From a virus: DNA of 39,113 nucleotides. The position numbers and the translations under genes are program-made. The stretch lies in the IMG/VR virus record IMGVR_UViG_3300037258_000326, positions 1 to 39,113 of that record; one strand, given 5' to 3'. Of the stretch, positions 5,945-37,429 are shown one piece after another (the stretch's first letter is position 1; the number at the start of each line of letters is the position of its first letter). The notes below the pieces were generated by a model that saw only the letters and a program-made list of their open reading frames with translations, made no database searches and was not told where the DNA came from.

Positions 5945-6192
5945 TTCTTCACCTCCTCATCCTTCGCCCTAGTGCGGGGGCTCTTTTTCCTTGCCCATCC
6001 GGGCAAAGGGTCACCGGCTGAGCGGAGATCATCTACCACCCAGCGTTCTACATCGCCCTCAATATCCGGTGGCCACGCGTTGGCCCGGCGCGCTTCGCTC
6101 ACCACGCGGTTGGCGCTTCGGCGCGTGGAGCACACCGCGAGGATATCTGCGCTCTCATAGGGCACGCGCCTCAATGCCACATAGACGGTCAT
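5941..6192 (-). CDS. 83-aa basic protein of unknown function
   Basis: The protein begins MTVYVALRRVPYESADILAV, has an Arg-rich centre (STRRSANRVVSEARRANAWP) and ends in a basic, disordered tail (RKKSPRTRAKDEEVKK). Such charge suggests nucleic-acid contact. It is the first small gene after the SMC-like ATPase, with a 4-nt overlap. It might be its partner, but no motif proves this. Confidence 0.55.
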   Translation of the reverse strand: MTVYVALRRVPYESADILAVCSTRRSANRVVSEARRANAWPPDIEGDVERWVVDDLRSAGDPLPGWARKKSPRTRAKDEEVKK

Positions 6193-7652
6193 GCCTTCTT
6201 CGCCTCCTCTACCACATCCTCGCCGCTCGCCTCGCCCTCCTCCATCACCACTCCCACCTTGCCGGTGGGATCCACGCGCTCGATGATGATCTGGAAGTTC
6301 TGCTCCTCGGCCAGTTTCTCCAGCAGGAGGAGGCTCTTTTTGTCCAGCAGGCTGCCGTCCTTGATGAAGCCCAGCCGCAGCTTCGGATTCGAGCTCACGC
6401 CCAGCGCCACGCTCACGCGGATCTGCTCGGCGTTCGATGCCTGGCTGAAGGGCAGTCCCTTGTACACCACTTCGCCCGCGCCGATGCTCAGCCCCTCGAT
6501 GGGCATCTTGGCCCGCGTGATCGCGTCGCTGCGCTCGTTGGCGCGCGTTTTCATGCGATCATCGATGTCCTTCCAGTGCTTCTCCGCCTCCGCCACGAGC
6601 TGCACGGTCTCACGATAGCGTGCCGCCCTCTGGATCGCTGCGTTGGTCTCCTGCGCGCGCGTCAGCTCCGCCGCGACCTCGGCCGTGTCGATCTCTTCGC
6701 CAACCTGAATCTGATGCGCGTCGCGCAGCAGTTCAAGGACGCGCGAGGTAGAGGTTGATGGGTCTGAGGACACAAGCGATATGCCTCCGACCTGACCGTC
6801 TAGCTTTTCGGCTGCGTCCAATAGTTCGGCAGCTTGGCGGCGCATCTGCTTGGCCTGTACTTCGGCAGCTTCCGCGTCGCGCTCCAGTCCCTCTTTGCGG
6901 CGCCGCTGCTCGGCCACGTGCTGGTTCTGCTGCGCGGCGTTCTGCAGCTTGGCCGTGATCGCGGCCGTGTCGATCGGCTCGTCGGGCAGCCCTGGCGCCG
7001 GCAGGTTCAAGCTGGCGAGCTGGGCCTTGGCCTGGTCCACGCCTCGGCCGGCGATGCGGCGCTCGTCGTAGTCGAGTGTCTGCGCCAAGTCCAGCGCATC
7101 GATGTCGATATCGAAGTGCACCAAACTGCGCATCGTCTCTAGCTGCTGCTTGTCATCCATGCGGGTGAACGCCAGCGGATCGAAACTGATCTTGCCCATG
7201 ATGCCGTTGAGCACCATCTGCGGAGACTTGAACTCCTCGCGCCGCTTGCCTTCGACGTGCAGCGTGGTTTTGTAGGTGCTTCCTTTCGCGCTCTTGTCCG
7301 CGTCGATGCGGGTGAAGGTCCGCGTAACGATGTACTCCCCGATGTCCAGCTTGACGGTCGCCACGCGCGTTCCGCTGCGGATCGGCTGGCTGGGTACAGT
7401 CGACGTTCCGGCCAGCGCCCACATGATGGCATCGATGATGGAGCTTTTGCCTGAGCCATTAGCTCCCGCGATGACCAGCATCTTGCCCTTGGGCTTGATG
7501 TGCGCCAGGCGCACGCGCTTCACGTTCTCGACAAACATCTCCACGATATGCAGCCCCTCCGGGGCGGCTGCGATCTCTTGTTTGGCGACCGCGCGCCTCT
7601 CGGCGGCGTTCGGCTCCTCGTCACGGTTGGCGTGCTGCGGCTTTCTGGGCAT
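6189..7652 (-). CDS. SMC/RecF/SbcC-like ABC-type ATPase
   Basis: This 487-aa protein has a Walker A GANGSGKSS (about residues 63-71), followed by IIDAIMWALAG as in RecF/SbcC/SMC heads. The middle is a coiled coil rich in Ala, Glu and Arg. The C-terminal head has SNAEQIRVSVALG, a variant ABC signature, then LRLGFIKDGSLLD in the Walker B/D-loop position. There is no CxxC zinc hook, and it is much shorter than SbcC or SMC. Phage members of this family act in DNA end processing or recombination, usually beside a nuclease; no SbcD-like nuclease is present here. Start chosen at 7652 because GGAGA lies 4 nt upstream; longer starts lie inside the promoter/operator. Confidence 0.85.
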   Translation of the reverse strand: MPRKPQHANRDEEPNAAERRAVAKQEIAAAPEGLHIVEMFVENVKRVRLAHIKPKGKMLVIAGANGSGKSSIIDAIMWALAGTSTVPSQPIRSGTRVATVKLDIGEYIVTRTFTRIDADKSAKGSTYKTTLHVEGKRREEFKSPQMVLNGIMGKISFDPLAFTRMDDKQQLETMRSLVHFDIDIDALDLAQTLDYDERRIAGRGVDQAKAQLASLNLPAPGLPDEPIDTAAITAKLQNAAQQNQHVAEQRRRKEGLERDAEAAEVQAKQMRRQAAELLDAAEKLDGQVGGISLVSSDPSTSTSRVLELLRDAHQIQVGEEIDTAEVAAELTRAQETNAAIQRAARYRETVQLVAEAEKHWKDIDDRMKTRANERSDAITRAKMPIEGLSIGAGEVVYKGLPFSQASNAEQIRVSVALGVSSNPKLRLGFIKDGSLLDKKSLLLLEKLAEEQNFQIIIERVDPTGKVGVVMEEGEASGEDVVEEAKKA

Positions 7653-7680
7653 CGGCTCTCCTCGCTTGTCCTTCCCCCAC

Positions 7681-7710
7681 ACTATACCCCCCATCATGGG
7701 GGGATGGGAA
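7681..7710 (-). promoter_or_regulatory. Promoter with internal palindromic operator for the ATPase operon
   Basis: On the minus strand TATAGT (7686-7681) is a good -10. A weak TTCCCA lies 18 bp upstream. Between them sits the palindrome CCCCCCAT-C-ATGGGGGG (7687-7703), the classic operator position. The 16-mer at 7692-7707 recurs with one mismatch at 34966-34981 in the same orientation relative to transcription. Confidence 0.55.
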
Positions 7711-7777: not shown

Positions 7778-8080
7778 CTACTTGGGTTTAGGCGCATCCG
7801 GCACGATGGTCCAGCTGCGATGGTCCAGGTGGTAGCCCGGATGTTCCTTGGCGATGTCGGCATCCACGCGGCTTACCTCGTTGTTTACCTCCTGATCGCG
7901 CTCGGCGTTGGCCTTGGCCTCTTCGAGCACCGCGCGAATGGCGATCTTCTCGGTGTCGGTAAGAGCAACTCCCGGCGCGGCCGCTGGATCCACATTGGGA
8001 GCGGGTCGAAGGTGCGACGGCCGCTGCGCGATCGCGGCGCTGCCGGCGAACAGGATAACGACGATCAGACTCCGAACCAT
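7778..8080 (-). CDS. Exported 100-aa protein with signal peptide
   Basis: The N-terminus MVRSLIVVILFAGSAAIAQ is a typical Sec signal peptide with an AIA-Q cleavage site near residue 18. The mature part is a short helical protein (LTDTEKIAIRAVLEEAKANA). ATG at 8080 is chosen because AGGAGA lies 6 nt upstream; upstream ATGs lack this. It is the last gene of the late operon. It could be a periplasmic lysis accessory or an exported surface factor. It lacks a lipobox and is not clearly a spanin. Confidence 0.65.
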   Translation of the reverse strand: MVRSLIVVILFAGSAAIAQRPSHLRPAPNVDPAAAPGVALTDTEKIAIRAVLEEAKANAERDQEVNNEVSRVDADIAKEHPGYHLDHRSWTIVPDAPKPK

Positions 8081-8091
8081 ATTGATTCTCC

Positions 8092-8868
8092 TCATACACC
8101 CGCCTTGCACAAACTATAGGCCGCAATCGCCGTCAGCGCCGTTGACGTCCAGCTACCCGCGAAGTATCCCCCATCGAGGATACGGCCATCGAATCCTTCC
8201 CCGCCGCCCGCCAGCCCAACGTACTTCTGCGGCTGCGTGAAGGTTCCCGCCGTCGTTCCGCTGGCGTCCACCGTGGAGGCGCCCCCGCTGAAGGTGTAGA
8301 GCGTCCACGCGCCGGTTGAGGAATTTCTGGTCATGCCCACCGTGTACTTCGTGGCCGAGGCAAACGTGGCGGTTCCGGCCCCCAGGGACGCGACCGCTTC
8401 TATCAGAATCTCCTGGTGCCGCGAGGAGTTGATGCGGTATTCAAACGCTCCCAGCGTGTTGGCCGTCAGCGCCTGGCCGGTTCCATTCGTCGTCGACTGG
8501 AAGGTAAACCACCATGAGTAGGTGCTGGCGAGGCTGAACGTGGAGCTGAAAGGAAAGTACTGCGGAACTGTGCTGCTGAAGTTGGCTGCGCCCAGTGTTC
8601 CGAAGGCGCTGGACACGAAGGTTGGATCGTTCCCTCCGCCGGCCGCGGTGAGGTTGGTCGATCCCACGATATCGGGCACAAGGGTGATCGCGTTGCCGGT
8701 CGAGCATCCGCCGGTGCAGGTAATCGATCCGAAGACGGGCCACTCGTTGGTCTCGTAGGCCGTTGGGGCGGTGCAGCCTGCAGCGGCGGCCAGCGCCCCC
8801 GTCACCGCCGGTCCGGGATTCTGCATCGGCGTCGCCAGGAGCAACGCAACAACCAGAAAATATCGCAT
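8092..8868 (-). CDS. Secreted LamG/lectin-like protein (258 aa)
   Basis: A hydrophobic N-terminal signal segment (MRYFLVVALLLATPMQNPGP) precedes a beta-rich domain. Features such as YSWWFTFQSTTNGTG, GAFEYRINSSRHQEILIEAV and YTVGMTRNSSTGAWTLYTFS resemble concanavalin A-like/LamG jelly-roll folds that bind glycans. Ser, Thr and Gly dominate, as in fibre proteins. Its ATG overlaps the previous stop by one base (TAATG). It may be a receptor-binding or decoration protein; the signal peptide is unusual for a virion protein. Confidence 0.65.
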   Translation of the reverse strand: MRYFLVVALLLATPMQNPGPAVTGALAAAAGCTAPTAYETNEWPVFGSITCTGGCSTGNAITLVPDIVGSTNLTAAGGGNDPTFVSSAFGTLGAANFSSTVPQYFPFSSTFSLASTYSWWFTFQSTTNGTGQALTANTLGAFEYRINSSRHQEILIEAVASLGAGTATFASATKYTVGMTRNSSTGAWTLYTFSGGASTVDASGTTAGTFTQPQKYVGLAGGGEGFDGRILDGGYFAGSWTSTALTAIAAYSLCKAGV

Positions 8869-10649
8869 TAGCGCGCTCCCACGTTGAAGGTGATCGAGCT
8901 ATAGGTAATGGAGCTTGCCGTCTGGTTACAGACCTTCCACGAAAGCGTGTTGCTGGCCGAGGGCCATGCCACAAACGTCATGCCCCCCGTCGATCCCCAC
9001 CCGGTCAGGCTCGAGGGATCGCTGCTGTAGGAAACCAGCGGCGTCATCGATGTAGTTAAACCCGTCATCGTCTTCGTCGTTGCCGAGCTGGAGCAGCTGT
9101 TCGCGGCCTGTGTGCTTCCGGTCACGGCCACGGTGCTGTTGAAGACTGGGTACGCGGCTGCAACCGCTATCTCGCCGGCGAACTGGGTAGTGGCAAGCTT
9201 CGTGCTGCTGTCGCTGACGCTCTGCGTGGTGGCTGTCGTTCCGTTGGGCAATGCCGGCGTCCCGCTCACGTTGGAGGCGGTACCGGTGGTGTTCTGATTC
9301 CACGTCGGGATGGTGCCGCCCAGGTTGGCGTAGGTGTAGCCGGTCGCGTTCACCAGGTTGGCGGAGGTCGGCGTTCCCAGCACAGGCGTCGTCATTGTCG
9401 GGCTGCTGAGGGTCAGTCCAGCGATCGTCGTCGTCGTGCTGCTGGCGGCGATCGTCGTCGATCCGATGGTGATGGGAAAGCCGCTCGATCCGCTGCCGCA
9501 GCCGGTGCATGTTCCGCTGACGTGGAGATCCGTTAGGTACAGCGAACCCGCCTTGTCGCCCGGTGTCGCCCCGTTCAGATCCATCACGGCCGCCGAGTCG
9601 CGTGTGAGCGAGACATCGTCGCCATCTTCGGGGTGTTCCGGGTCTCCCATACCAACGCCCTCTAAAGCGACCACCGGCAGCACTGACCTCAGGATTAGAA
9701 GTCCGGTCGGATCGATACTGGTCTGCGTTCCTAAATTCATGTTGCCGACATACGTCTCCAGAGTGAGGCCCTCTTCGCTATCGAGATCGAGATTCGCAAC
9801 GGTCCCGGCTGCGGTGTCGGCAACATCGTAAAGTCGCAGATCGCTGAGCGCGATCACACCGTTTCCGATTTGAAATCCAGGATCTCCACTCCCGGAAAGG
9901 AAGGTGAGCGTCGGCGTGTCCACGCTGCCGATGGGGTAGGTATACCCGAGGTCCAGCGTGCCGTCGAGATTGATGTCAATGCCGTGGCCTCCTCCGGTCG
10001 TGCGGATAACGAATTCGTCACCTTCGGGCGAGTCCAACTCGAAGATCACATCGGCGGAGGATGTGCCGGGCTCGTGGATGTAGCTATAGAGTTCGCTTCC
10101 GTTGTAGTTCTCGTAGAGATACGATCCCAGCTTTCCGCCCTCTACGTCGATGTTGTAGCTATCGCCGCTATCGTCGGGCACCGTCAGCCCCTCGGTGAAG
10201 GTCTGCAGCGCGGTGAATCCGTTGTCCACGTCGGTGTAGGCGATATCGGACGGCAGCGTTCCAGCAGGGCTTATGTAGTTCACGCCGTCCGTGCTCACAA
10301 AAGCGCTGGCCCCGTTCGCGATCGTGACGCCGGTTCCGCTCGCGCCGATTAACTGGATCGACTGGCCTCCGGTCGTGTTGTTCTCCACCACATACTGCTG
10401 CCCCGGATTCAGCGGCGCGATTAAATTCCGCGTCGCCGTCAGGTCCACGCTGCTGCCCACTACCAGCGTCCCCGCCCACCACTCGTTCGCCACCATCGTG
10501 TAATTCGCATCGGCCATGGTGACGGCGGTCTGTCCTTCGAGCGACTGGCCGCCCGTTATGCCCAGCGAACCGCCTACGGGCACAGAGGGTCCGCTCTGGC
10601 CGAACGCCAGCGGGCTACAAAAAAGAAGAGTCAGCAAAAGTTGTTTCAT
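8868..10649 (-). CDS. Tail fibre protein with N-terminal signal peptide (593 aa)
   Basis: The start at 10649 (AGGTGGA just upstream, ATGA overlap with the previous gene) gives the signal peptide MKQLLLTLLFCSPLAFGQ. The body is Gly/Ser/Thr-rich. It contains phage fibre signatures: PVLGTPTSANLVNATGY (a repeat element of many fibres) and TTATTQSVSDSSTKLATTQF near residue 480, as in short tail fibres. The C-terminal segment (LSWKVCNQTASSITYSSITF) resembles a fibre tip. It probably binds the host surface. A cleavable signal on such a protein is unexpected; it may be exported or displayed, or the signal may be a misread anchor. Confidence 0.75.
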   Translation of the reverse strand: MKQLLLTLLFCSPLAFGQSGPSVPVGGSLGITGGQSLEGQTAVTMADANYTMVANEWWAGTLVVGSSVDLTATRNLIAPLNPGQQYVVENNTTGGQSIQLIGASGTGVTIANGASAFVSTDGVNYISPAGTLPSDIAYTDVDNGFTALQTFTEGLTVPDDSGDSYNIDVEGGKLGSYLYENYNGSELYSYIHEPGTSSADVIFELDSPEGDEFVIRTTGGGHGIDINLDGTLDLGYTYPIGSVDTPTLTFLSGSGDPGFQIGNGVIALSDLRLYDVADTAAGTVANLDLDSEEGLTLETYVGNMNLGTQTSIDPTGLLILRSVLPVVALEGVGMGDPEHPEDGDDVSLTRDSAAVMDLNGATPGDKAGSLYLTDLHVSGTCTGCGSGSSGFPITIGSTTIAASSTTTTIAGLTLSSPTMTTPVLGTPTSANLVNATGYTYANLGGTIPTWNQNTTGTASNVSGTPALPNGTTATTQSVSDSSTKLATTQFAGEIAVAAAYPVFNSTVAVTGSTQAANSCSSSATTKTMTGLTTSMTPLVSYSSDPSSLTGWGSTGGMTFVAWPSASNTLSWKVCNQTASSITYSSITFNVGAR

Positions 10650-11611
10650 CAATCCACCTCTGCGGTGTAGTTGGAGCCGGTATAGTAGGTCGGGCTGACG
10701 CACAGATACATCCCATCGGACGTCCCATATTGATTGTCGAAGGTAACGCTGGAGCATGAAAACACCGTCGTGAATCCGTTGATCTTGAAAGTGTGGCCGG
10801 TGGTGGTCAGCAGAAAGTAGATGTACTGGCTGCTGGGCGAAACGGTCACCGTGCCGGTGTTCTGCGGAAGGCCCCAGGTCCCCAGCGTTCCGGTCGCGCC
10901 GGTGAGCACCGCATTGTTGCCGCTTGCGGTCGCGCCGGTAGCGCCGCCTGTGCCGAGCCCATAGAAAGTGCGATAGCCGAAGCCGATCGTCTTCGTTGCC
11001 GTCTTCGTCGTGGAACCGATCGCAGTCAGCGTAAACGTCGTGTTGGTCGTGTAGCTGTGCGCGAGGCTGCCGCTGGTGAAGGGCGTCGTGAGGGTGTCGG
11101 TGTTCGTCCCATCCGAGATCGAAGCGCTCGCCGGCGTGCTGCTGTAGCTCGCAGTAAAGTTCGTTGGCGACGCGACGGTATAGCCGATCTCATAGTTGCC
11201 GCAGGTTGAGCAGGTGAAGCTGGTGATGGAGAACCCGGCCAGGATGTCGTCTTGGGTAAGCTGCTTCCAGCTTCCGGTCGTGTTATTCACGCCGTTGTAG
11301 ACCGGCACCATGCTCTCGTTGGTGGCCGTGCCCTGCACGGTGAAGTTGCCTGTGCCGCCGCCGCCGCCGCTCACCTCGGCCCATCCGCTGGAGTCGCAGA
11401 CATAATGGACCGGAGCTGTGGGGCTGGAAACGTCATAGTACGGCGTCCCATAGTTGGCCGCGCCGCAGCTCAGGCTGGGCGCGCCGCTCCCGGTGATCGG
11501 CACCCAGTTGATGCCGTTATAGGCGTTCGTCTTCTGCGCCCAGCTAGGAATATACGAGATACATAGCAGCGATATGAGAATCGCCGTCTTCCGGAATGTA
11601 GTCGGGTTCAT
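10649..11611 (-). CDS. Fibre/adhesin-like protein with signal peptide (320 aa)
   Basis: The first 26 residues form a signal peptide (basic FRK, hydrophobic AILISLLCISYIPSWA, then Q). The following YNGINWVPITGSG segment and GGGGGTGN linker are typical of fibre-like adhesins. Repeats of Ser/Thr and NTTFTLTAIGST suggest a beta-sandwich (Ig-like) region about residues 140-205. It overlaps the downstream gene by 4 nt and the upstream gene by 68 nt. The role is probably host attachment or surface display. Confidence 0.65.
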   Translation of the reverse strand: MNPTTFRKTAILISLLCISYIPSWAQKTNAYNGINWVPITGSGAPSLSCGAANYGTPYYDVSSPTAPVHYVCDSSGWAEVSGGGGGTGNFTVQGTATNESMVPVYNGVNNTTGSWKQLTQDDILAGFSITSFTCSTCGNYEIGYTVASPTNFTASYSSTPASASISDGTNTDTLTTPFTSGSLAHSYTTNTTFTLTAIGSTTKTATKTIGFGYRTFYGLGTGGATGATASGNNAVLTGATGTLGTWGLPQNTGTVTVSPSSQYIYFLLTTTGHTFKINGFTTVFSCSSVTFDNQYGTSDGMYLCVSPTYYTGSNYTAEVD

Positions 11612-12137
11612 AAGTGATCGTCGCTCCGCTCAGCGTGATGCCGATGCCATCGGTCATGCGTGAGCCGTTCTTGAAAAAGTTCAAGCTGCTGGGAGGGTTC
11701 GGGGCTTCGGAAAGCGTGAAGGTGTCGTTGCCGCTGTCGTCGATCGGCGGCGTCGGCACCTCGTCGAAGATCCACCGGAAGCCTGGCGGCACAGGCGGCG
11801 GAGGATTGTAGGGCGTCTCGCTCGATAGATCGACCGTCTCGGTGCCGCTGAACTGGTAGGCGTTGATCTGCACCACATTGTTGTTCGCGTCGATCACGGT
11901 CACGGTGTAGAACGTCCCGCTGGGACTGATGACGTCATTGCCCCACAGCTCGAAGTCGTAGTCTCCGCCCGTGCAATCGATCGGCAACGGCGCGGTCTGT
12001 CCAATCAGCGCGGTCCCGCTCACGCGAGGCAGCTGCGATCCATAGCCGCAGAGCTGCACCACAAGCGAGCCCGGCTCGGCGGCTCCGAAGAGGTCTGCGA
12101 CGCTTCCGGAGACGGTAATCTGCGGTGTAACGGGCAT
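11544..12137 (-). CDS. Tail fibre-associated/adaptor protein (197 aa)
   Basis: The start at 12137 is selected because AAAGG lies 5 nt upstream. The protein opens with a beta-sandwich-like domain (TPQITVSGSVADLFGAAEPG; YTVTVIDANNNVVQINAYQF) similar to the anchor domains at the base of fibres, then a Pro-rich linker (PYNPPPPVPPGFRW), then a second small domain (FTLSEAPNPPSSLNFFKNG) of fibre-base type. No signal peptide, unlike the next three genes. Likely connects a fibre to the tail. Confidence 0.55.
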   Translation of the reverse strand: MPVTPQITVSGSVADLFGAAEPGSLVVQLCGYGSQLPRVSGTALIGQTAPLPIDCTGGDYDFELWGNDVISPSGTFYTVTVIDANNNVVQINAYQFSGTETVDLSSETPYNPPPPVPPGFRWIFDEVPTPPIDDSGNDTFTLSEAPNPPSSLNFFKNGSRMTDGIGITLSGATITYEPDYIPEDGDSHIAAMYLVYS

Positions 12138-12145
12138 CGTTGCCT

Positions 12146-12556
12146 TTACTCGAAGAAGCTCACCGGTCCCACCGTGGCGACCATCTTGTGTTCTTCGCGG
12201 TTTTTCAGAATATTTTGTTGAAACCACTTTCCATCAACGCGGTGCAGTTCGCAATAGAAAAGCGCGCCGGCGCTCAGGTCGAACTCTTCGCTCCCGTCAT
12301 AGATGTCGTCGATCCGCTGCAAGAGCTGCCTCACCGAACCATCGCGCAGGTTGACCGGATAGTGCGGGTAGAGCGTGCCGGCGCGGTCCGGGGCGCGGTC
12401 CAGTATCTGCGCCCACTCCCCGCCGTACCACCCGGCCGCCGCGCGGTTCCTCATCACCATCGCGACCGCCACCATGTTATTCAGGCCGCCGTGGTGCGCA
12501 CCCTCGCGCACCGCCAGCGCGGCCAGCTCCGCCTTGATGAAGGTGTCGGCGTTCAT
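12146..12556 (-). CDS. SleB-like cell-wall hydrolase, endolysin candidate
   Basis: The 136-aa protein has the helical pattern AELAALAVREGAHHGGLNN then MVAVAMVMRNRAAAGWYGGEW, matching the SleB/cell-wall hydrolase fold, where a catalytic Glu lies in the first helix (here probably E33-region or E18). The later block GALFYCELHRVDGKWFQQN with a final VGPVSFF resembles the end of the SleB domain. SleB-type enzymes are lytic transglycosylases acting on peptidoglycan. It has no signal peptide, so it would need a holin; none is obvious next to it. It is the only lysin candidate in the window. Confidence 0.55.
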   Translation of the reverse strand: MNADTFIKAELAALAVREGAHHGGLNNMVAVAMVMRNRAAAGWYGGEWAQILDRAPDRAGTLYPHYPVNLRDGSVRQLLQRIDDIYDGSEEFDLSAGALFYCELHRVDGKWFQQNILKNREEHKMVATVGPVSFFE

Positions 12557-12843
12557 GCCGGCTCCAATCGGTTCTTCGCCGTCGCGGCCATCCAGTGTGC
12601 GATGGGTCGGCCGCCGCGCCCCCAGTGGAAGGTAGAAACGGTGCCGTCGCTGTGGCGCTCGATCAGCATGGCGTCTGTCACCGCATGCGGATTACGCGAG
12701 AGATCCCGCGCGGCTTTTTGAAGCTGGCCGGGAATGTCATAGACAGTTCCCTGGTCGATCGCTCGAACGCCGTGCTTCTTTTTGAGCGTTGTCTTCAGAT
12801 TGCTCTGCTGCGTGATTGTGCGCGGTGCCAGAGGTTCGTTCAC
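12553..12843 (-). CDS. 96-aa basic protein of unknown function
   Basis: A basic N-terminal half (QSNLKTTLKKKHGVRAID) is followed by a segment with strand character (DAMLIERHSDGTVSTFHWGR) and a Gly/Arg run. ATGA overlaps join it to the putative lysin gene downstream and the 264-aa gene upstream. No family recognised; a minor virion component is likely from position. Confidence 0.6.
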   Translation of the reverse strand: MNEPLAPRTITQQSNLKTTLKKKHGVRAIDQGTVYDIPGQLQKAARDLSRNPHAVTDAMLIERHSDGTVSTFHWGRGGRPIAHWMAATAKNRLEPA

Positions 12844-13634
12844 AGCTTCACCCCCATGCGGATGTTTCGGTACGCCTGCAGCTGCAGCTGGTAGAACTCG
12901 CTGGCCACGCCTCGCCCTGGGCCGAAGGCTTTATGCGCCTCCTGTTCGGTCAGAACGTCCGCCATCATGAGGACAAGCAGCGTCGTGCGCCATCCGCGAT
13001 ACTTCTCTTTGACCGGCACGTTGTACTGGTTAAAGCGCATCACGCTCCACTCCTGCGAGTACGGGTATTGCAGGCTGGTGATGGTCTTCTCGATTCTGCG
13101 GCCGCTGGCCTCGTCTTTCACCCACGCATTCACTCCGACCAGTCCCTTGTTGCTGCCGTGGTTGAGCCAGATCCGCGCGCTCGAAATTGTGGGCGTCACC
13201 CATTGCGTCTTGCGCCCCTCGTTGTCTTCGGTGAAGATCAATCGTTTGGGCGTATCGATCCTGGCGTCCACGCCGCTGCGCCGCAAAATCGCGATGAACT
13301 CATAGGCGTGCAGGACGCGGCCGCGCCGCATCTCTTCAGCCTCTTTGCCCTGCCAGCGCTCCTGGCCGTTCCATCGCTGCTTGCGGGTGTCTTCGTGGCA
13401 GTAATTCTCCTCGAAGCGCTTAAGCATCATCTCCACCGCTTCTTCGCTGGAGTCGGTAGCGAAGCGCAGCTCGGCCATCTCTTTCCTCATGGCCTCGTCG
13501 TACACCGGCGTCAATTCTTGGTCGTAGTTCTTCCACCATTCGGCCGAATGTTTTTCGCTGCCGTTCCACGCCATGCGCACCGCTTCTTGCTTGGGCGCGG
13601 CCTGGTGCTCGGGTTTGATGATGACGTTCGCCAT
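12840..13634 (-). CDS. 264-aa late protein of unknown function
   Basis: Trp-rich, highly charged, mostly helical N-terminal half (SAEWWKNYDQELTPVYDEAM) and a mixed alpha/beta C-terminal half (RIWLNHGSNKGLVGVNAWVK). No signal peptide or membrane segment. It sits between internal-virion-type genes and the lysin, where phages often encode structural or assembly proteins. The family was not recognised. Confidence 0.65.
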   Translation of the reverse strand: MANVIIKPEHQAAPKQEAVRMAWNGSEKHSAEWWKNYDQELTPVYDEAMRKEMAELRFATDSSEEAVEMMLKRFEENYCHEDTRKQRWNGQERWQGKEAEEMRRGRVLHAYEFIAILRRSGVDARIDTPKRLIFTEDNEGRKTQWVTPTISSARIWLNHGSNKGLVGVNAWVKDEASGRRIEKTITSLQYPYSQEWSVMRFNQYNVPVKEKYRGWRTTLLVLMMADVLTEQEAHKAFGPGRGVASEFYQLQLQAYRNIRMGVKL

Positions 13635-13841
13635 CTATGCTGCGACTCTCTTCCTGCGCGCGGTCCGCGCCTTGGCGACCATAAAGCAGGCGCAGATAGC
13701 GCAACGCTGGTTAAGGCGCACGGTCAGTTCGCCTTCGACGCGACCCTCCAGAATGCGGTTCGTGGCGATGGGTTCGGTAATGGTTTCGGCCACGTGCCCG
13801 CGAAAAATGTGTCCGCAATAAAATTCAAGATTGCACATCAT
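13635..13841 (-). CDS. Cys-rich 68-aa protein
   Basis: The reading frame starts MMCNLEFYCGHIFRGHVAET; CGH near the start and RCAICACF near residue 46 give a zinc-ribbon-like arrangement. The tail is basic (KARTARRKRVAA). The start overlaps the previous stop (ATGA). Metal binding is likely; the function is unknown. Confidence 0.6.
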   Translation of the reverse strand: MMCNLEFYCGHIFRGHVAETITEPIATNRILEGRVEGELTVRLNQRCAICACFMVAKARTARRKRVAA

Positions 13842-16051
13842 GGTTGGCCCTCCGGCTCGTTGCTCTGCTGCTCCCGCTGGATCTCACTCGAAATCAACCC
13901 CGCTGCTACCTTCGGCGTGACATTGTTGCGCACCGCATAATCGAGCATCTGGCTAAGGCGCGGGGTGGTTGCCGCCTGTTGCAGTATCCATCGCTCTGCC
14001 TTGGCTCCGGCATATGCTCCTGCCAGCGATCCTTCGTAACCTCCGAAGTGGTAGCCGAGGACCGCGCCGGCTCCGCCTAGCACCTTGCCGTGCGCGATGT
14101 TGTGCAACACGCTCAGGCCCATCTGCTGGATCTTGCCCTTCGCTCCCGGCTCCGATTTAAGCAGGTCTGCCGTGCGCGTCAGACTGTCCATGCCATCCTT
14201 GCCAATCACGCTCTCTAGCCGGTCCTCCCCATAATCGCGAACCATGCGCTGCAGCCCCGTCTGCATCTTCTGGCCTGCAAGCACGCGGCCTCCGCGCACC
14301 TGTCCAGCATATTTTTCGTCCACGTTGGACGCCCGGTTCACAACATCGTTGAGACCGTCGAGCACCATCGACTTGGTCCATAGTTTTGTCGCCTGGATGC
14401 GCTCGTCCGGCGTGATGGCCTTGGAGTCGGCGATGAGCTTCTGAATACCGCTCTCATATCCTCGCGCGGCCAGAAAGTCGCCACGATTCTGCGCCGCCGC
14501 GCGAGAGCGGTTTAGGTCGCCAAACTCTCCGTCCGTCGCCTCATCGATCTTCTGATAGATCGGCCGCGCCGCGTTCTGCAGTTGGTCCGCAGCCTCCCCG
14601 AAGTGGCCTACGCCGGCCGCCGCGCGCGCCGAGTCGAGCGGGAGAAAATTCGGCAGCGTGCGCTGGTAGGCGTGATACATATCCATCTGCTCTTCGAGGT
14701 TGTCCCGCGCGGCAGTCAGAGCGCGTATGTGTGCCTCGGGGGTGCCGGGTGCAGGATGATCCAGCGCGTCGTTTAGTTGGCTGAGGTGCAGCTGCGCCGT
14801 CTCGGGATGGTAGGCGATCAGGTCGCCGCCGCCCTTGGCTACATCGCGGGCGGGTTCACGCGGCGTGCTCGTTGCCACGTCTGCGCCGGTCGTTCCTTCG
14901 ATGCCAGGCACGGTCGGCTTTTCGGCGGAGCTCGTGACGTACGAAGGCTGCTTAAACGCCGCCTGCGCGCGCTTGGCTGCGGGCTGTGCGATCTCACCCT
15001 CTGTGCCCTCGACGGGTTCCACACCGGGGATGGTGAAGCCGTATGGCTGCATCTCTTCGGGTGTTTGCAAAAGCCGTGCAGGATCGGTGACAAGTCCCTG
15101 CGGAACGCGCCCCTGATTGGCTTCTTCCAGCGCGTCGTAAGTGGCGCGCTGCGCAACGTTGCGGAAGATGCGCGGGGCTGCGGCCTGCTGCTTCGCCGCA
15201 ATCTTAGGGGCCTCTTCAATGCTGACGCTGCCGCGCGGCCCGGTGCCGGGACGCTGTGAGCTGAGGGTAGGAACCCGCTCGCCGCCAATCGTCTCGGTTG
15301 TGGGCGCGACGCGTTTTAGTACGGCGGACAATCCTTCAGTAAGAGGGCTGAGGACCGCGCCGCCCACGGCGCCTGCTGTCGCGGCTGTTCCCGCAGCTCC
15401 GGCGTCGCCGCCGGTGTGCACGAAGGTCTGCGCTCCGGTCTCCGCGCCTGTCTTTAAGGCTGCGTGCACCGCGCGCGCGCCCACTGCTGCCAGTTTCGCG
15501 ATGCGCGGATTCTCTTGCAAAAACTTCGCCGTTTTGAGTTGCTGGGCCATGCGCTCGGTGTAGGTCATGGCGCGCGCGGCGTCTTCCTCTTCACCACCCA
15601 AAGGGTTCAACAGTTCGCCGATCATCTCGCCAGCGCCGCCTAGATGCTGAAAGAGACCGTGTTCCTGGGCGTGCTGCTGTATCCAGTCGCCAGCCTCTTT
15701 CAGGTCATCGGCAGCTGTGCCCTGGCTCTTTCCCTCGCTTGCATCCTGCGCCTGCTGCGCGGTCAGCGGCACCACGCCGTACTGCCCCATGATGTGCATG
15801 AGCCCACCCACACCGCTCGCGAGAGACTTGGCCGCACCAGACGCGAAGTTCTCGGGCGCGCCTATAACGTCATTGACGGCGCTGAGGATTGGATGGGCGG
15901 CGAAGAACCCATCCTCACCTGTAGCCGGAGCTGCTGCCGACGCTGCCACTGGCGTTCCTACACCGGCATAGGGGTCTGCCCCAGTTGGGACCGGAGATCC
16001 CACCGCCGTTCCTACCCCGGCATACGGATCGGCTTGAGCGGCTGCGGGCAC
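13838..16051 (-). CDS. Large internal-virion-type protein (737 aa)
   Basis: The GTG start directly follows the TAG of the upstream gene. The N-terminus carries a repeated ADPYAGVGT element (two copies within 40 residues). Ala/Gly-rich helical segments follow, and a glycine-rich, membrane-compatible stretch lies near the C-terminus (GAGAVLGYHFGGYEGSLAGA). Such long Ala/Gln-rich proteins encoded between the tail and lysis genes of podoviruses are usually ejected internal virion proteins. No enzymatic domain is certain. Assignment is by position and composition. Confidence 0.6.
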   Translation of the reverse strand: MPAAAQADPYAGVGTAVGSPVPTGADPYAGVGTPVAASAAAPATGEDGFFAAHPILSAVNDVIGAPENFASGAAKSLASGVGGLMHIMGQYGVVPLTAQQAQDASEGKSQGTAADDLKEAGDWIQQHAQEHGLFQHLGGAGEMIGELLNPLGGEEEDAARAMTYTERMAQQLKTAKFLQENPRIAKLAAVGARAVHAALKTGAETGAQTFVHTGGDAGAAGTAATAGAVGGAVLSPLTEGLSAVLKRVAPTTETIGGERVPTLSSQRPGTGPRGSVSIEEAPKIAAKQQAAAPRIFRNVAQRATYDALEEANQGRVPQGLVTDPARLLQTPEEMQPYGFTIPGVEPVEGTEGEIAQPAAKRAQAAFKQPSYVTSSAEKPTVPGIEGTTGADVATSTPREPARDVAKGGGDLIAYHPETAQLHLSQLNDALDHPAPGTPEAHIRALTAARDNLEEQMDMYHAYQRTLPNFLPLDSARAAAGVGHFGEAADQLQNAARPIYQKIDEATDGEFGDLNRSRAAAQNRGDFLAARGYESGIQKLIADSKAITPDERIQATKLWTKSMVLDGLNDVVNRASNVDEKYAGQVRGGRVLAGQKMQTGLQRMVRDYGEDRLESVIGKDGMDSLTRTADLLKSEPGAKGKIQQMGLSVLHNIAHGKVLGGAGAVLGYHFGGYEGSLAGAYAGAKAERWILQQAATTPRLSQMLDYAVRNNVTPKVAAGLISSEIQREQQSNEPEGQP

Positions 16052-17920
16052 CTACTGCACCACCTGTCCGGGGATGTTCTTTACCTGACTTCTCGGAATG
16101 TCTTTCCACGTCGTCATGCCCGGCGCCCAGACGCGCGCCATGTTCGCAGCCGGGGGCGGCGTTCCGGCCGGGATCGCGGGCGGCTGCGTTGTGGGCGCGT
16201 TCGCTCCGGATGCTGTGCCCCCATAGCGCTTCTGAAGAAACCGGTTATTACTCACGATGCTGTGCCGCTGGGTCTCGAGCGCGGTGGTCAGAATCCCCGC
16301 TGCACTGCGCAGATTTTCGAGTGTCGGATGTTCGCCCAGCATCTCGTCGGCCTGTTCGAGTTTCTTGTCCGTCTCACTTCCGCCTAGCAGGGGGTTGCCG
16401 ATAAGACCGGCGATGGATCTCCGCGTCTCCGTCACCGCCGTGTTGAAATTGCCGGCCGCCTGGCCTCCGAAGTAACGCTGTACTCCCAGCGAGGCACTGT
16501 TGAATGCGCCGTTGGTGCCCATATGCGCCTTCTCGGCAGTGCTCAACATGGTCTTCATATAGCCGCCCGGCCCAATAATGCGATCGATGCCATCGAGCGC
16601 CGCCTGTGTCTTCGGACTCTCGGCGAACTTGTATTCCTGCTTGATGATCGACTCGCTCCATGGTTTGCCGTTCTTCTGTCCCATCTGGATTGCGCCCGCC
16701 ACGACTGCATTCGGATCGATACCCGCGCCCTTGGCCTCGCGCTTCAAGTCAGCTGGCAGAATGTCGCCATCGTAGAGCGCTTCGACCATGCCCTGGAACT
16801 GGGGATTGGGCGATCCATCCGGGTTCGCCATTCCAGCCCTGATCTGTTGGGCTCCGGCATTGTCTCGATTCGCCGCCGCGTAGTGCTCCGCCTCTTCGCC
16901 CTTGCTGGTCTTGATCTGCTGTTTTTTGTAGTCGTCGCTCACCTCGTCGGAGTCCAGCTTCAGACGCGCTGCGGTCTGCGCGGAGAAGGCGGCCCGATAG
17001 TCGTTCATGCTCATCGATCCGGCCGGCACGGTGTCGCTGATCCATGTGGGCTTGCCGCCGTTCACGCCCGGCTTACCGGGCACCATGCGCGGCATCGGAA
17101 GATCCTCGGTGGTGCGCTCGGTTCCCCAGTTCTCCGGAATCACTGCCACGTGGACGCCGGCCGCTTTGCCGTCCTGGTAGAACGGCTTGATGTCCACGCG
17201 CCCATGCGCCATTGCCTCGGCCAACGTTGGATCGTTCTTCGCATGCGCCGCGACATCGGCAAAATCCTTGAAGGTTCCCACGTCGGTTGCGCCGGTGTCG
17301 CGCAGCAACTTCATGTAGTCATCGGTGCCTGCGGCGTCTTCCTCGGTCGCGGCCCGCTTCGCGCGCGCGAGGTTGAAGCTCGCCGCCGCCGTCTGTACCG
17401 CCATCGTTTGCAGCTGCGCCTTGCGTACCAGTGTCTTCTGTTGCTCGTCGTAGTTCTGATTGGCCTGCTGTACCTTCTGCTGCTGCTGCTGCTGCGCGCG
17501 CTGCATTCCCGCGCCCACGCCCAGGCTCAAGCCGCGCTCCACAGATCCCGGTCCGTTGCCCGCGTTGCCTGACGCCGCGAGGCCACTCAGTGCACCCGCC
17601 ACAATACGCTTCCATTGCGAGCCGGGCGTGCTGGGCGATTTCGACGCGACCAAGGTGCCGTTCTGGTCGCGTGAAAGGGTCACATCGTCGGCGCCACCCA
17701 GCGCGGAGAGAATGCCGTGGTATACGCGCGCCGGGATGCTCTGCGGAGTCACGTTGCCGCCCGGCGTCACTGTCACCGCTGAGGGCTGCGCTGCGGGCTG
17801 CGGCTGAGGCGCGGGCTGCGCGGCCGGAGCTGGTTGCGGGCTGACGGGCGCGGGCTGCGGCGTCGTGCTGGCGTCGGTGAGGGTCTGTGCTGCTGCTGCT
17901 GGTGTGGTGGTGCCTCCCAT
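16052..17920 (-). CDS. Large virion-associated protein with poly-Gln coiled region (622 aa)
   Basis: A Pro/Ala/Gln-rich disordered N-terminus (first about 60 residues) precedes the helical block AQQQQQQKVQQANQNYDEQQ (about residues 145-165) and a long Ala/Lys helical domain. The rest is mixed, ending with another Pro-rich segment. Length, low complexity and place beside the 737-aa protein suggest a second internal-virion or tail-associated protein. No catalytic motif was recognised. Confidence 0.6.
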   Translation of the reverse strand: MGGTTTPAAAAQTLTDASTTPQPAPVSPQPAPAAQPAPQPQPAAQPSAVTVTPGGNVTPQSIPARVYHGILSALGGADDVTLSRDQNGTLVASKSPSTPGSQWKRIVAGALSGLAASGNAGNGPGSVERGLSLGVGAGMQRAQQQQQQKVQQANQNYDEQQKTLVRKAQLQTMAVQTAAASFNLARAKRAATEEDAAGTDDYMKLLRDTGATDVGTFKDFADVAAHAKNDPTLAEAMAHGRVDIKPFYQDGKAAGVHVAVIPENWGTERTTEDLPMPRMVPGKPGVNGGKPTWISDTVPAGSMSMNDYRAAFSAQTAARLKLDSDEVSDDYKKQQIKTSKGEEAEHYAAANRDNAGAQQIRAGMANPDGSPNPQFQGMVEALYDGDILPADLKREAKGAGIDPNAVVAGAIQMGQKNGKPWSESIIKQEYKFAESPKTQAALDGIDRIIGPGGYMKTMLSTAEKAHMGTNGAFNSASLGVQRYFGGQAAGNFNTAVTETRRSIAGLIGNPLLGGSETDKKLEQADEMLGEHPTLENLRSAAGILTTALETQRHSIVSNNRFLQKRYGGTASGANAPTTQPPAIPAGTPPPAANMARVWAPGMTTWKDIPRSQVKNIPGQVVQ

Positions 17921-17929
17921 AGCTCTCTC

Positions 17930-18607
17930 CTAGAATCCGGCCATCGCCAGTGAAGCGTCTGTTGTGGCCTGCGTGGTGGTCGGCGAAGGCGCTCCTGTAG
18001 GCATGCCCGTCGCGCCCACGGCCTGCCCGGCGATGCCGCCCAGCGCGCCGAACACGCTGGTCCAAACCGAATTGCCCTGCGCTGCAATCGTGTTGGCGGT
18101 ATTTCCGGCCGCAGTGCTCGCACTGGTGGCGGCGTCCGCGGTGCCGACCGGGTTCAATGTTGAGGCGGCGTTGCTCAAGGTACCGGCCGCGTTCATGAAG
18201 TTTTGGCGTCCGGTCGCATAGTTTTGCTGCAGGATGGTGTTCTGCTCACCCGAGAGCGTGCCCGCCGCCGTCGCCGCCAATGCCTGTTTGTTGGCCGCCG
18301 CCGCGCCCGAGGGGATGAAATTGTTGCCGCCGCCCGCCGCCACCATGTTGTCATTCAGAGCTTTTTCGGCGGACGCATAATTTCGGGCAGTCTGCTCGGT
18401 GGCTTCCGTGTTGAGGCTGGTGTCCTCTGCCTGCGAAAAGCCAGTCTGATTCGGTCCATTTTCCAGAATGGGCTGGAAAACGGCGTTGAGTGAGTTAAGG
18501 ATTCCCTGGCTCTCGCTGTAGGTGCTGCTGTTCTGCGCCATGATCTGCTTGGTCAGGTCCAGCTGATCCTGCTGCACGGTGGTTTGGGCTGCCGAAGGTC
18601 CGCACAT
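17930..18607 (-). CDS. Internal-virion/tail-assembly protein (225 aa, MCGPS start)
   Basis: The start at 18607 (MCGPSAAQTTVQQDQLDLTK) has GGGGAAA 6 nt upstream; longer frames lack a ribosome binding site. The protein is helical, Ala/Asn/Gln-rich and ends with a glycine-rich hydrophobic segment (VFGALGGIAGQAVGATGM). An MCGP start and such composition are seen in podovirus virion proteins encoded just upstream of the internal proteins. The assignment is by resemblance and order. Confidence 0.6.
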   Translation of the reverse strand: MCGPSAAQTTVQQDQLDLTKQIMAQNSSTYSESQGILNSLNAVFQPILENGPNQTGFSQAEDTSLNTEATEQTARNYASAEKALNDNMVAAGGGNNFIPSGAAAANKQALAATAAGTLSGEQNTILQQNYATGRQNFMNAAGTLSNAASTLNPVGTADAATSASTAAGNTANTIAAQGNSVWTSVFGALGGIAGQAVGATGMPTGAPSPTTTQATTDASLAMAGF

Positions 18608-18609
18608 GG

Positions 18610-19101
18610 CTACTTTCCCCCCTGTTGCACTACGTGCATCGCGTCGCCAAAGGTCACATGGCACCGTTCTGGCTCAAGACTACGTACAAGCTCTCCCGGC
18701 ATCGCCTCGCAGCCCATCTGGTGAATTGCCAGCCTCCGCAACAGAGGGGCCTTGGACTCGAACAGGATCTCGGTTGCTCCGCGCCGCGCGCACAGTGCCG
18801 CTGCCCAGTCCATGCCGGCGATCAGGCCGTCCCGGTTGCGATCGCGATTTCCCTTCGTCTCGGCGGGGCCGAATTGCGTATCCAGCCGCACCACGTTGCT
18901 GGTGCGGAAGAAGAAAAGCGGTCCCTGCGCGTCGCTCAGCAGGTAGCACCCCACGCCTGGTTCCTCTTCGATAAAAAACTCAGGCTCGATGCGCTTGGCG
19001 GCATGATCTGGGTCCTCCGCGATCCATGCCCGCAGCACGGCATGATCCCGCGCCGTCGCCTGGCGCACGCTGTAGGTCCCGAATTGAAAGAGATCTTTCA
19101 T
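18610..19101 (-). CDS. GNAT-like acetyltransferase in the virion operon
   Basis: The 163-aa protein starts with YSVRQATARDHAVLRAWIAE, the beta1-alpha1 opening of GNAT enzymes. A core strand pair (CYLLSDAQGPLFFFRTSNVV) and a helix (GLIAGMDWAAALCARRGATE) with RGATEILFES follow, as in acetyl-CoA-binding folds. The usual RxxGxG/A loop is weak or altered, so catalysis is uncertain. The ATG at 19101 is chosen because upstream sequence belongs to another frame. GNAT-like genes in this position occur in several podoviruses and may modify virion or host proteins. Confidence 0.6.
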   Translation of the reverse strand: MKDLFQFGTYSVRQATARDHAVLRAWIAEDPDHAAKRIEPEFFIEEEPGVGCYLLSDAQGPLFFFRTSNVVRLDTQFGPAETKGNRDRNRDGLIAGMDWAAALCARRGATEILFESKAPLLRRLAIHQMGCEAMPGELVRSLEPERCHVTFGDAMHVVQQGGK

Positions 19102-19373
19102 GGCACCAGTCCCACCGGCAGAAACCTCCGCTTGGGCAATGGCGCGCCGCCGTAGAACTGGCGTGCGTAGACATCGCTGCCCGAAGCCATGGGCGGGAGA
19201 CTGCCCTGCATGAGAGGAGAGACCCCGCTGTCGGTCGCGATCGTAGGGGCGCGGTGCGGCTGCGGCGTGGCGATCGTCGCCGGCGTCTCGCTCGGCACCG
19301 GCTGCATGGGAACAAAAGCGGGGGCCGGTCGCGGCGTATGGGATTTGGGCGGATTGTTTGTTTTGGCCATCAT
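19098..19373 (-). CDS. 91-aa Pro-rich late protein
   Basis: A low-complexity protein dominated by Pro, Ala, Thr and Ser (NPPKSHTPRPAPAFVPMQPV) with a short ordered tail (SDVYARQFYGGAPLPKRRFL). It overlaps its neighbours by 4 nt on each side (start ATGATG). Probably a small disordered virion linker or assembly protein; no family assigned. Confidence 0.55.
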   Translation of the reverse strand: MMAKTNNPPKSHTPRPAPAFVPMQPVPSETPATIATPQPHRAPTIATDSGVSPLMQGSLPPMASGSDVYARQFYGGAPLPKRRFLPVGLVP

Positions 19374-22300
19374 GCCTCCGGTCGCAGGGTTCCATAGATC
19401 GTGTGGGTCAAAAGCTCATTGGCCGCGTCTTCAGCAGCCCAGTCGATACGCAGCTGCAGATGCCTGCAGGTCTGGTTGTTCTGGTTTTGCGCCAGGTAAT
19501 ACCGATCACTGTACAGCGTCTTGGGTGCGGGTTCGAGCGGAGGATCGCTGACGTTCCTTCGCAGCATCGTGAACGCTGGCGAATCGCTGTAACCGCTCAG
19601 CTCGCTCAGTAGTACGCCCACGGTCGGCGGCGTGCCGAGCTTCATCGAATCGAGCGTCATGAACTCCACTTCGGCTTCGGTGCCTGGCTGGCAGAGCATC
19701 ACGCTGCCGATGATGAGATTCATGGCATAGGGTTCGCCGTCGTCGCTGTTGACGGAGTAGTCGCGCTGCAAAATTGGTCCGCTCTCATTCGCGCCAATCA
19801 AGAGAGTCTTAATTCCTGGCGACACTTCCACGGATTGAATCGCCCCGCAACCTCCCACGATCTCGCGGAAGGGACTCCATACATTGCCGCTCTCGGGCGC
19901 GCCCAGAATGCCCATGCGGAACCATCCCGTGCTTCCGTCCCCCACATACAGCGCGAGGTCTTCGCTCGATCCTTCGTGGAAGGTCAGATAGGCCGTCGAC
20001 GGGTCGAAGTTTTCGTTGAACTGATCGCCGATGAAGAAGCCAACCTCCACTTCGCCCGCGCCAGGGTCGAGCGAGATCACGCGCCGCGAACTCGTCATCA
20101 TGTAGATCGTGCTTCCATTCACGCACTCGGCGTCATAGCTCAGTAGTCCTATGCCCTCCTGAAAAGTCGGGGGCGGAATGAAGGGAGAATCCGCCGTGCC
20201 CAGTCCGGTTTCGATATACATATTGGCGGTGCCGTTGATGAGCAGCCCGATCGATGTCGCGCGGCATTTGGTCAACGACTCCGGCATCAGAAAATAGTTA
20301 TTCGGTGGGAATGCCTCGCTCCCGCTGCCAATCAGCGCGTCCGGTCCGGCCGAGTAAATGAGCCGGTTGCCCACGAATCCCCAGATGCGGCCGAGATGAT
20401 AAGCGCTGGGCAAAAATCCGATCGGCGGCGGGTTGTTCGCGCCCGCGATTGGCGCTTCGATCTCGACATCGAGGTCCGTATCGGGAATCTGGTCGAAGTA
20501 GGTCCATGGAATACCGCCTCCGGGGTTGGCGATCTCATCCATCTCCAGCAAAGTGGATCCGCCCTGCGCGGTGCGAAACAGCACGATGACATCCACCTGC
20601 GGATCTGCGCTTCCAAAGCCCTGCACGGCTGCGATGAAATCCGCCGACAATGTGATCGCTGCGCTGCGATCGCTGCTTGAGCCCACGTGACCCGTCACGC
20701 TGTTCTTGTAGGCGTAGGCATAGTACGCGGGCTCGGTGCTCACCGGCGCAATCGCTCCCGTATTGAGCCAGACACCGGGTTCAAGCACCGTTGCGGTGCC
20801 TGTATCGGCTTCTTCGGAAAGTTCGGCCGGCTCGGTGAAGAATCCCACCACGGTATTGCTGTCCGGAGCGTCGGGCGGATCCAACTCAGTGAAAGAGGAA
20901 AGCAGAAACCACGTTCCGTTGAGCGCAGGATAGGTGGTGAGACCGGCGAGCGTCATCGTCTGGCCGAGCGAAAATCCCGGCGCCCCTCCAGGATCTTCAC
21001 CAACTCCGGAGATTCCGATTTGCGCGAGACCATGATCGTCGTCATAAGCCAAGACGCCCGTAATCTGCACGTCGCCCAGGATGGTCTCCGAACTCAGCGC
21101 CCCAGCCGTTCCCCACGTGGGCTCCGTCGCCCCTGTCGTGTAAGGTCCTGCAGCGCCTTTCTGGAGATCGAACTCCAGCGGGGTTCCTACAACATAAGGC
21201 GAATCCTGAATCTGCTGCGTATACCCGTTGGAATCGAGAATGATGGAGGCGGTCGAAAGATTCTTGGTCGGAATGAACGTGCTGTTATACCCGCCATAGG
21301 AGCCCAGCGTTGGATCCCGATAGGCATAGACGCGGCCCAGACATTTCCACGTAATGCTTCCATCCTGCTGCAGCGCGCCCGCGCCCGTCATCCATGCGGT
21401 CTGAGCGCTCCCCGAAACACCCGAATTCTGTGCGGCATAGACATACACCATTTTGGTGTTGTCAGTGGGGTCACCGAAGGTGGTGAAGGATCCTTTTGCA
21501 TAGCTAGAGGCTGCACTCCAGGCCGTAGGCCCTTGATAGGTCCATACCGCGCTGCCATCCGTCGTCGTGTCCCCGATGGCTCCCGTGTTCCAGGTCGCGG
21601 CCCCGGCTCCCGTGGTGCCTGACGTCGTGAGTTGAAACATGCAATAGACACTGCTCACCTCATCCGAAACAAAACCGGAGGGCCAGTAAACCGTGTTTGC
21701 CGACCAGGGAGGATACCCGCTGGGCGGAGCTGGTGATTGAAAGATGGTCGGCGCGGCCGCCGGCGTCGCGATGCCCCAGTTCTGCACGTAGCTGGACCGA
21801 TTGATCCACTGCGCGCCCCCGTCCTGCGTCACTGCCCACAGCGTCGTCGCCCAATCAGGTTCGCTGCTCCCAGTGATGCCGCTGCCGCTCACGGCGCTTC
21901 CGGTGTCCGGGGCACTGGCGTAATCGCCATGCGAGAACGCGGCGGTGATCTGGTTGCTGTCCTGGCCGCCTGGCAAAACACTGGCGATCGTGATGGTCTC
22001 CCCGTTCAGAAAAGTGGCCGTCGTAAGGCTGTCAAGCTCCAGCTCGACGCCCACCATCTGAAAAAGATTGTCGGGCACATTCACGCTGGTGCTGTTGGCG
22101 ACGGGCGGCGTCCCGCTGACTGTCGAAACAGCCTGCGTCTGAGTGAAGCTGTTCGTGCTCGATGTGAAGTACGTTGCCTCTGCGCCTGGCGTATCGCTCA
22201 CGTAGATGCGATAGCTCACTGCGCCTGAGATTGCCGGCCAGGTCCACGCGATTTGCGAAGTGGATCCGGTTGTGGGCACGCTGGCGGACTCGTTGCCTGC

Positions 22301-36156: not shown

Positions 36157-36290
36157 AATTAAGCCATTCTTAAGCCTTACTTATGTCTCAGTTCCAAACC
36201 CTATGAGATGAGCGGGATGACGGCAAGATCACGCCAAAACCGTCTCAGAGCCCATTTTGCATCCTCGCGGCATAACGAATGAGCACCATA

Positions 36291-36350
36291 CCTCACTCAC
36301 TCGTTACCTCACTCACTCGTTACCTCACTCACTCGTTACCTCACTCGTTA
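36291..36350 (+). repeat. Tandem 16-bp repeats upstream of parA (candidate centromere)
   Basis: CCTCACTCACTCGTTA is repeated exactly three times (36291-36306, 36307-36322, 36323-36338). A shortened fourth copy, CCTCACTCGTTA, lies at 36339-36350. The array ends about 37 bp before the parA ATG. Direct repeats at this place are the hallmark of type Ib partition centromeres, where they bind a ribbon-helix-helix protein and also repress the operon. Confidence 0.75.
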
Positions 36351-36369
36351 CCCCATAACCTCACTACAT

Positions 36370-36386
36370 CACTATATAGTGTTCTA
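36370..36386 (+). promoter_or_regulatory. Palindromic -10 region of parA
   Basis: CACTATATAGTG (36370-36381) is a perfect 12-bp palindrome containing TATAGT (36375-36380), a good -10. The parA ATG lies 6 nt after it, which fits a leaderless transcript. No clear -35 was seen, and the tandem repeats cover that area. Confidence 0.5.
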
Positions 36387-37310: not shown

Positions 37311-37429
37311 TCTTGCTTCTCGCGCATCTTCCGCAGCTCATGGCGTATACCGTGCAGGACTTCGAGCGCATCCGCCACCACGCACACAATCAGCAGCGAC
37401 AAAAGACCTTTGAGGATGTCGCCAATCAT
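37304..37429 (-). CDS. 41-aa membrane peptide coupled to the initiator gene
   Basis: The reading frame starts MIGDILKGLLSLLIVCVVAD and continues ALEVLHGIRHELRKMREKQDT, a single transmembrane helix followed by a charged helix. The ATG overlaps the initiator stop (ATGA). It would be co-translated with RepA, so it may modulate replication or membrane location, or be a small lysogeny factor. No known family was recognised. Confidence 0.5.
   Translation of the reverse strand: MIGDILKGLLSLLIVCVVADALEVLHGIRHELRKMREKQDT

Follow-up and report, generated by a model that had tools for sequence, protein, structure and literature searches.

Fibre-like genes with conserved Sec-type signals follow a putative virion anchor gene in a lineage of viruses probably infecting Acidobacteriota

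In a group of soil viruses of Acidobacteriota, parts of the host-recognition apparatus seem to leave the cytoplasm, the site of particle assembly. We analyzed a virus record of 39,113 bases (the whole stretch is called the window below), and found that its last late genes encode fibre-like proteins with predicted Sec signal peptides, a feature that belongs to a lineage of viruses. Export of these proteins is well supported by sequence features, and their docking on the virion is what we infer from gene order and from a fusion in another phage. The reading to which we lean, by a small measure, is that exported, disulfide-bonded distal fibres or spikes join particles bearing P5, the product of the adjoining gene, at lysis.

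The late module of the window is podovirus-like and lies on the minus strand. P0001 to P0004 are its last four genes, consecutive and chained by overlaps: P0001 starts within P5 (68 nt), and the next three junctions overlap by 1 nt, 1 nt and 4 nt. The features are as follows.

11544-12137, minus strand: P5, proposed virion anchor of a split fibre; short (197 aa), without a signal peptide
10649-11611, minus strand: P0001, predicted exported fibre-like protein 1; 320 aa, 6 Cys in the mature form
11537-11611, minus strand: predicted signal peptide of P0001, MNPTTFRKTAILISLLCISYIPSWA↓Q, site SWA↓Q
8868-10649, minus strand: P0002, predicted exported fibre-like protein 2; 593 aa, 4 Cys in the mature form
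10599-10649, minus strand: predicted signal peptide of P0002, MKQLLLTLLFCSPLAFG↓QS, site AFG↓Q
8092-8868, minus strand: P0003; 258 aa, start MRYFLVVALLLATPM..., hydrophobic N-terminus without a clean cleavage site
7778-8095, minus strand: P0004, predicted small exported protein; 105 aa, 0 Cys
8027-8095, minus strand: predicted signal peptide of P0004, MRRINMVRSLIVVILFAGSAAIA↓Q, ending ...RSLIVVILFAGSAAIA↓Q, site AIA↓Q

The longer start offered by the ORF tool for P0002 (8868-10757) was rejected, the TGATG overlap at 10649 being the natural start. P0004, small and free of cysteine, is not a fibre; small signal-bearing genes likewise come after the fibre in several relatives. A sequence-only reading of this DNA had reported tail-fibre or lectin motifs in two or three of the four genes. 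The fibre part holds, directly for one gene and through the syntenic genes of relatives: P0002 carries a fibre motif of phages (GTPTSANLVNATGYTYANLGGTIPTWNQNTTG...ATTQ), and its residues from about 391 to 493 match 31 IMG/VR fibre loci. The lectin part fared less well, as P0003 is possibly lectin-like when judged by eye, while it gave no Pfam or PHROG match and a search for its relatives found none. Pfam and PHROG searches of the window proteins yielded no useful matches, and P0001 and P0003, searched one by one, matched no family; P0001 has an N-terminal module in common with the fibre of relative G010. Several exported relatives carry pectate-lyase-like domains, typical of spikes; an AlphaFold model of one spike relative (pLDDT 44) was too poor to use.

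Signal peptides were scored with a rule-based scorer of our own rather than SignalP. P0001, P0002 and P0004 were clearly positive, with clean [A/G]↓Q sites, P0003 was marginal, and none of the 35 other window genes was positive with the same scorer. The earlier claim of Sec signals on all four genes thus stands for three and is uncertain for the fourth. In these three proteins and in their relatives, a positive n-region, a hydrophobic h-region and small residues at -3 and -1 are present, and 28 of 43 phage signals have Gln at +1, a residue to which the scorer is blind. Cor and Llp are small superinfection-exclusion lipoproteins and resemble the present proteins as phage products exported to the envelope, but the proteins here are 300-1290 aa long, fibre-like and mostly of the signal-peptidase-I type. 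A lipobox test also spoke against Cor/Llp-type lipoproteins, given the [A/G]↓Q cleavage sites, the lengths of P0001-P0003 (258-593 aa) and, in P0004, small size but 0 Cys.

The [A/G]↓Q cleavage grammar matches that of an Acidobacteriota plasmid, Granulicella tundricola pACIX902, in which Gln occupies +1 in 7 of 17 predicted signals. This resemblance is the point in favour of another origin, in which the phage would have captured secreted adhesins or enzymes of its host and the genes would not be phage fibres. We hold such a capture to be very improbable: the N-terminal module of the fibres is absent from the genome_contigs scan, P0002 carries the phage fibre motif, fibre homologues without signals occur in phages (G035 and L181, below), and the plasmid proteins with predicted signals contain few cysteines. 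The Gln at +1 in the plasmid and in the phage signals resembles the Q-rule and runs against its description as exclusive to Bacteroidetes (PMC10653852).

Conservation of the signal was assessed with relatives gathered from IMG/VR using neighbouring genes, and not the fibres, as bait. Every main-clade relative with a complete junction has P5 and then a long fibre-like gene with a signal. A separate scan, keyed on P5 and again not on fibres, gave 36 loci (a few of them near-duplicates), of which 34 could be scored once L169, which ends before the next gene, and L181, a P5-fibre fusion, were set aside. The long gene after P5 has a signal in 34/34, a count that includes L159 and L167 (Cys at -3, read from the N-termini) as well as L158 and L182 (the latter on the same contig as G030) by re-reading. 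Fibres are usually made in the cytoplasm without a signal; here P0001, P0002 and all 34 syntenic genes carry one. Among complete fibres elsewhere that contain the P0002 motif, 0/25 have a signal. An N-terminal module, NP[HN]T[QGN]IxWP..C..C, has a signal just upstream in 24/24 loci, including contigs without the portal family of the window: L133 (a 104-kb phage), L140 and L131, the last with four signal-bearing genes in a row. Homologues were also checked for missing signals, which the sequence-only reading had named as a refuting outcome. All the close ones bear a signal, and the two cases without, the fibre of G035 and the L181 fusion, are nearly free of cysteine. Among the portal relatives whose fibre is complete, G035 is the remotest, and the N-terminus of its fibre shows homology to those of two signal-bearing fibres in their mature form.

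Cysteines give indirect support for export. Of 35 signal-bearing fibres in mature form, 34 contain an even number of cysteines (binomial P = 1e-9, a test that assumes independence, whereas homologous proteins are not fully independent; the even count of G014 depends on cleavage after AYC, and otherwise the tally is 33/35). Their Cys content is 1.99%, against 0.24% in signal-less fibres elsewhere, and the other late proteins of the window have 0.63%; the signal-less G035 fibre has 1 Cys in 912 aa and the L181 fusion protein 2 in 689 aa. This pattern is what fully disulfide-bonded proteins folded outside the cytoplasm would be expected to look like. It also bears on the idea that the signals are unused for export, the hydrophobic N-termini acting as membrane or virion anchors of fibres that assemble in the cytoplasm as usual. 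Cytoplasmic assembly is indeed normal for virion fibres, and in the window the signal region of P0001 is overprinted on the end of P5. Against these points stand the clean [A/G]↓Q sites with Gln so often at +1, the even cysteines and the position of the hydrophobic core past the P5 stop in most relatives, for which overprinting offers no explanation, so that we consider unused signals improbable. A signal arising purely as a by-product of P5 overprinting was rejected on the same ground, namely that in most relatives the core lies downstream of the P5 stop; overprinting could possibly account for the start codon and the n-region.

P5 has the look of a virion anchor, with the fibre it belongs to split over two genes. 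Its N-terminal domain is conserved through the lineage and its C-terminal tip domain comes in swappable types. AlphaFold2 on 21 P5 sequences gave a confident N-terminal half, and phage tail-fibre proteins are among the closest structural matches of the P5 model, at modest scores. On the 96-kb contig L181, a single polypeptide without a signal joins the P5 N-domain (40% identity, 2e-15) to a P0002-like segment (36%, 1e-9); in the window, the P5 and P0002 modules are on separate proteins and the signal is on the distal one only. In the portal-derived set, the P5 C-terminal type and the N-terminal module of the fibre co-vary without exception, the 13 type-A P5 genes pairing with an NPxTQIxWP or related module and the 4 type-B genes with other modules, although type-B cases are few and one of them, G030, has a third kind of fibre N-terminus. 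The P5 of the window was placed in type A by eye, BLAST having left it unlinked. In L133 and L140, from other portal lineages, the genes in the P5 position share the type-A C-terminus only, and they precede an NPxTQIxWP fibre.

The junction is not constant, which rules out a programmed frameshift or a readthrough that would join the fibre to P5. Overlaps range from 14 to 68 nt, while fibres start 12 and 6 nt past the P5 stop in G011 and G012 and about 170 nt past it in G023 and G031, and this varying spacing leaves no fixed shift between the two genes. In L133 (6001-6020), the start codon of the fibre lies inside the final IDAFC codons of P5 (gATGcgTTcTG), and similar junctions occur in relatives. 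To judge from the overlapping translations, this overlap would fix the MR[SF] start and the relative frame.

The host is probably a member of the Acidobacteriota, on the strength of a RepA-like gene closest to plasmids of Granulicella tundricola, a portal match to a Tunturiibacter phage and the cultured Tunturi phages. In the window, a ParA-like gene (36279-37118, plus strand) and the RepA-like gene (37426-38445, minus strand) occur together, and given the plasmid affinity of RepA the virus may be a phage-plasmid. A ParA-like gene also comes after the fibre in G015. Scans of genome_contigs for prophages with the portal and with the N-terminal module found nothing, and an invented consensus peptide searched against phages returned chance matches only. 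Among cultured phages, Tunturi_1, which infects Tunturiibacter (Acidobacteriota), has five signal-bearing genes (10371-23028), Tunturi_2 has the same arrangement, and Tunturi_4 has three, adjoining a short adaptor without a signal. Tunturi_3 shares the portal family of the window, and its fibres have no signals.

We propose that the cluster encodes the distal part of a tail fibre or tailspike apparatus built from two gene products. P5, made without a signal, would remain in the cytoplasm and be built into the virion as the anchor. P0001, P0002 and probably P0003 would be translated from the same late operon and threaded through the Sec translocon of the host, where signal peptidase may cut them to leave a new N-terminal Gln, and disulfide bonds may then form in the periplasm. 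At cell lysis, the exported proteins would encounter particles set free from the cell and attach to their P5, and the phage would thereby acquire receptor-binding fibres hardened by disulfides, or spikes active on polysaccharides. At the level of sequence, this model is supported by the signals, the paired cysteines, the constant company of P5 and the fusion of P5 to a fibre in another phage; export in vivo, signal-peptidase cleavage and periplasmic disulfide bonding are what these features would predict. Since particles of tailed phages form in the cytoplasm, attachment of exported fibres would have to wait for lysis. The textbook view of tailed-phage assembly is cytoplasmic throughout, and in vitro, T4 and P22 particles that are otherwise complete can receive their fibres or spikes late. 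To our knowledge, no phage has a documented fibre attachment delayed to lysis. Counting against the model, the relatives Tunturi_3 and L181 manage with fibres that have no signals.

The sequence-only reading had left the choice between an exported surface module and fibres assembled after export. Export itself is borne out by the conserved signals, the cleavage grammar and the even cysteines, and of the two readings we prefer assembly after export, since the locus has no large fibre-like genes other than the exported ones and the adjoining P5 resembles the anchor half of a split fibre. The main competing reading is that the proteins are exported and never join the virion, acting at the surface of the infected or carrying cell or in the surrounding medium; examples would be free depolymerases clearing exopolysaccharide, receptor-masking decoys that exclude other phages and adhesins of a phage-plasmid carrier. 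The same export evidence applies to it, the ParA and RepA genes related to Granulicella plasmids suggest that the window may persist as a plasmid, and the pectate-lyase-like domains would suit free depolymerases. However, these genes are joined by overlap to the late structural operon, with P5 before them in all 34 scorable loci, they are long and highly variable with a fibre-like layout and no other large fibre-like gene at the site, and a P5-fibre fusion exists. The known exclusion genes, moreover, encode small lipoproteins or membrane proteins and are expressed on their own. We regard a purely secreted role as a real but lesser possibility. The most far-reaching reading is an assembly route widespread among tailed phages, with Sec-exported, disulfide-bonded receptor-binding fibres fitted to signal-less anchors on finished particles only at or after lysis, and for it we see the case as evenly balanced.

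The genes resemble the tail fibres and tailspikes of podoviruses and siphoviruses in their place after the tail genes, their length, their modular variable sequence, the common fibre motif, the pectate-lyase-like domains of several members and the signal-less homologues in G035 and L181. They differ in the N-terminal Sec signal, the roughly 2% of paired cysteines and the allocation of anchor and distal part to separate genes. Searches of the open-access literature turned up no paper that describes tail fibres with signal peptides. Porphyromonas gingivalis phages encode Q-rule exported proteins with unknown functions (PMC10367356), which are likewise phage-encoded and have Gln at +1 after a Sec signal, but are not described as fibres and belong to a Bacteroidetes host. 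Tunturi_1, _2 and _4 (PMC11924767) are isolated Acidobacteriota phages with consecutive signal-bearing, Cys-rich fibre or spike genes, and belong to portal lineages other than that of the window, with podo- and siphovirus morphotypes. By term search, the main text of that paper mentions neither signal peptides nor mass spectrometry nor SDS-PAGE.

If a whole group of Acidobacteriota phages has receptor-binding fibres that are exported and folded outside the cytoplasm, there are two outcomes. Parts would be added to virions after lysis, which would be a new step of assembly, or the phages would release fibre-like proteins that stay apart from the particle, and these would form a new class of exported phage protein. 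Either outcome bears on phage life in acidic soils, on host recognition and on superinfection, and the cultured phages with the same genes make the question directly testable. In Tunturi_4, the annotated start of gp111 (L149, 22074-25172) lies too late, and the upstream frame adds a signal peptide.

Two further observations concern the surroundings of the locus. A 69-kb contig (IMGVR_UViG_3300010376_000035; L124 and L125) contains two inverted copies of the fibre locus, which are probably an assembly artefact. In the window, an SMC/RecN-like ATPase gene (phrog_1499) lies at 6189-7697 on the minus strand, and most relatives with sequence available beyond the fibre cluster have a similar gene there.
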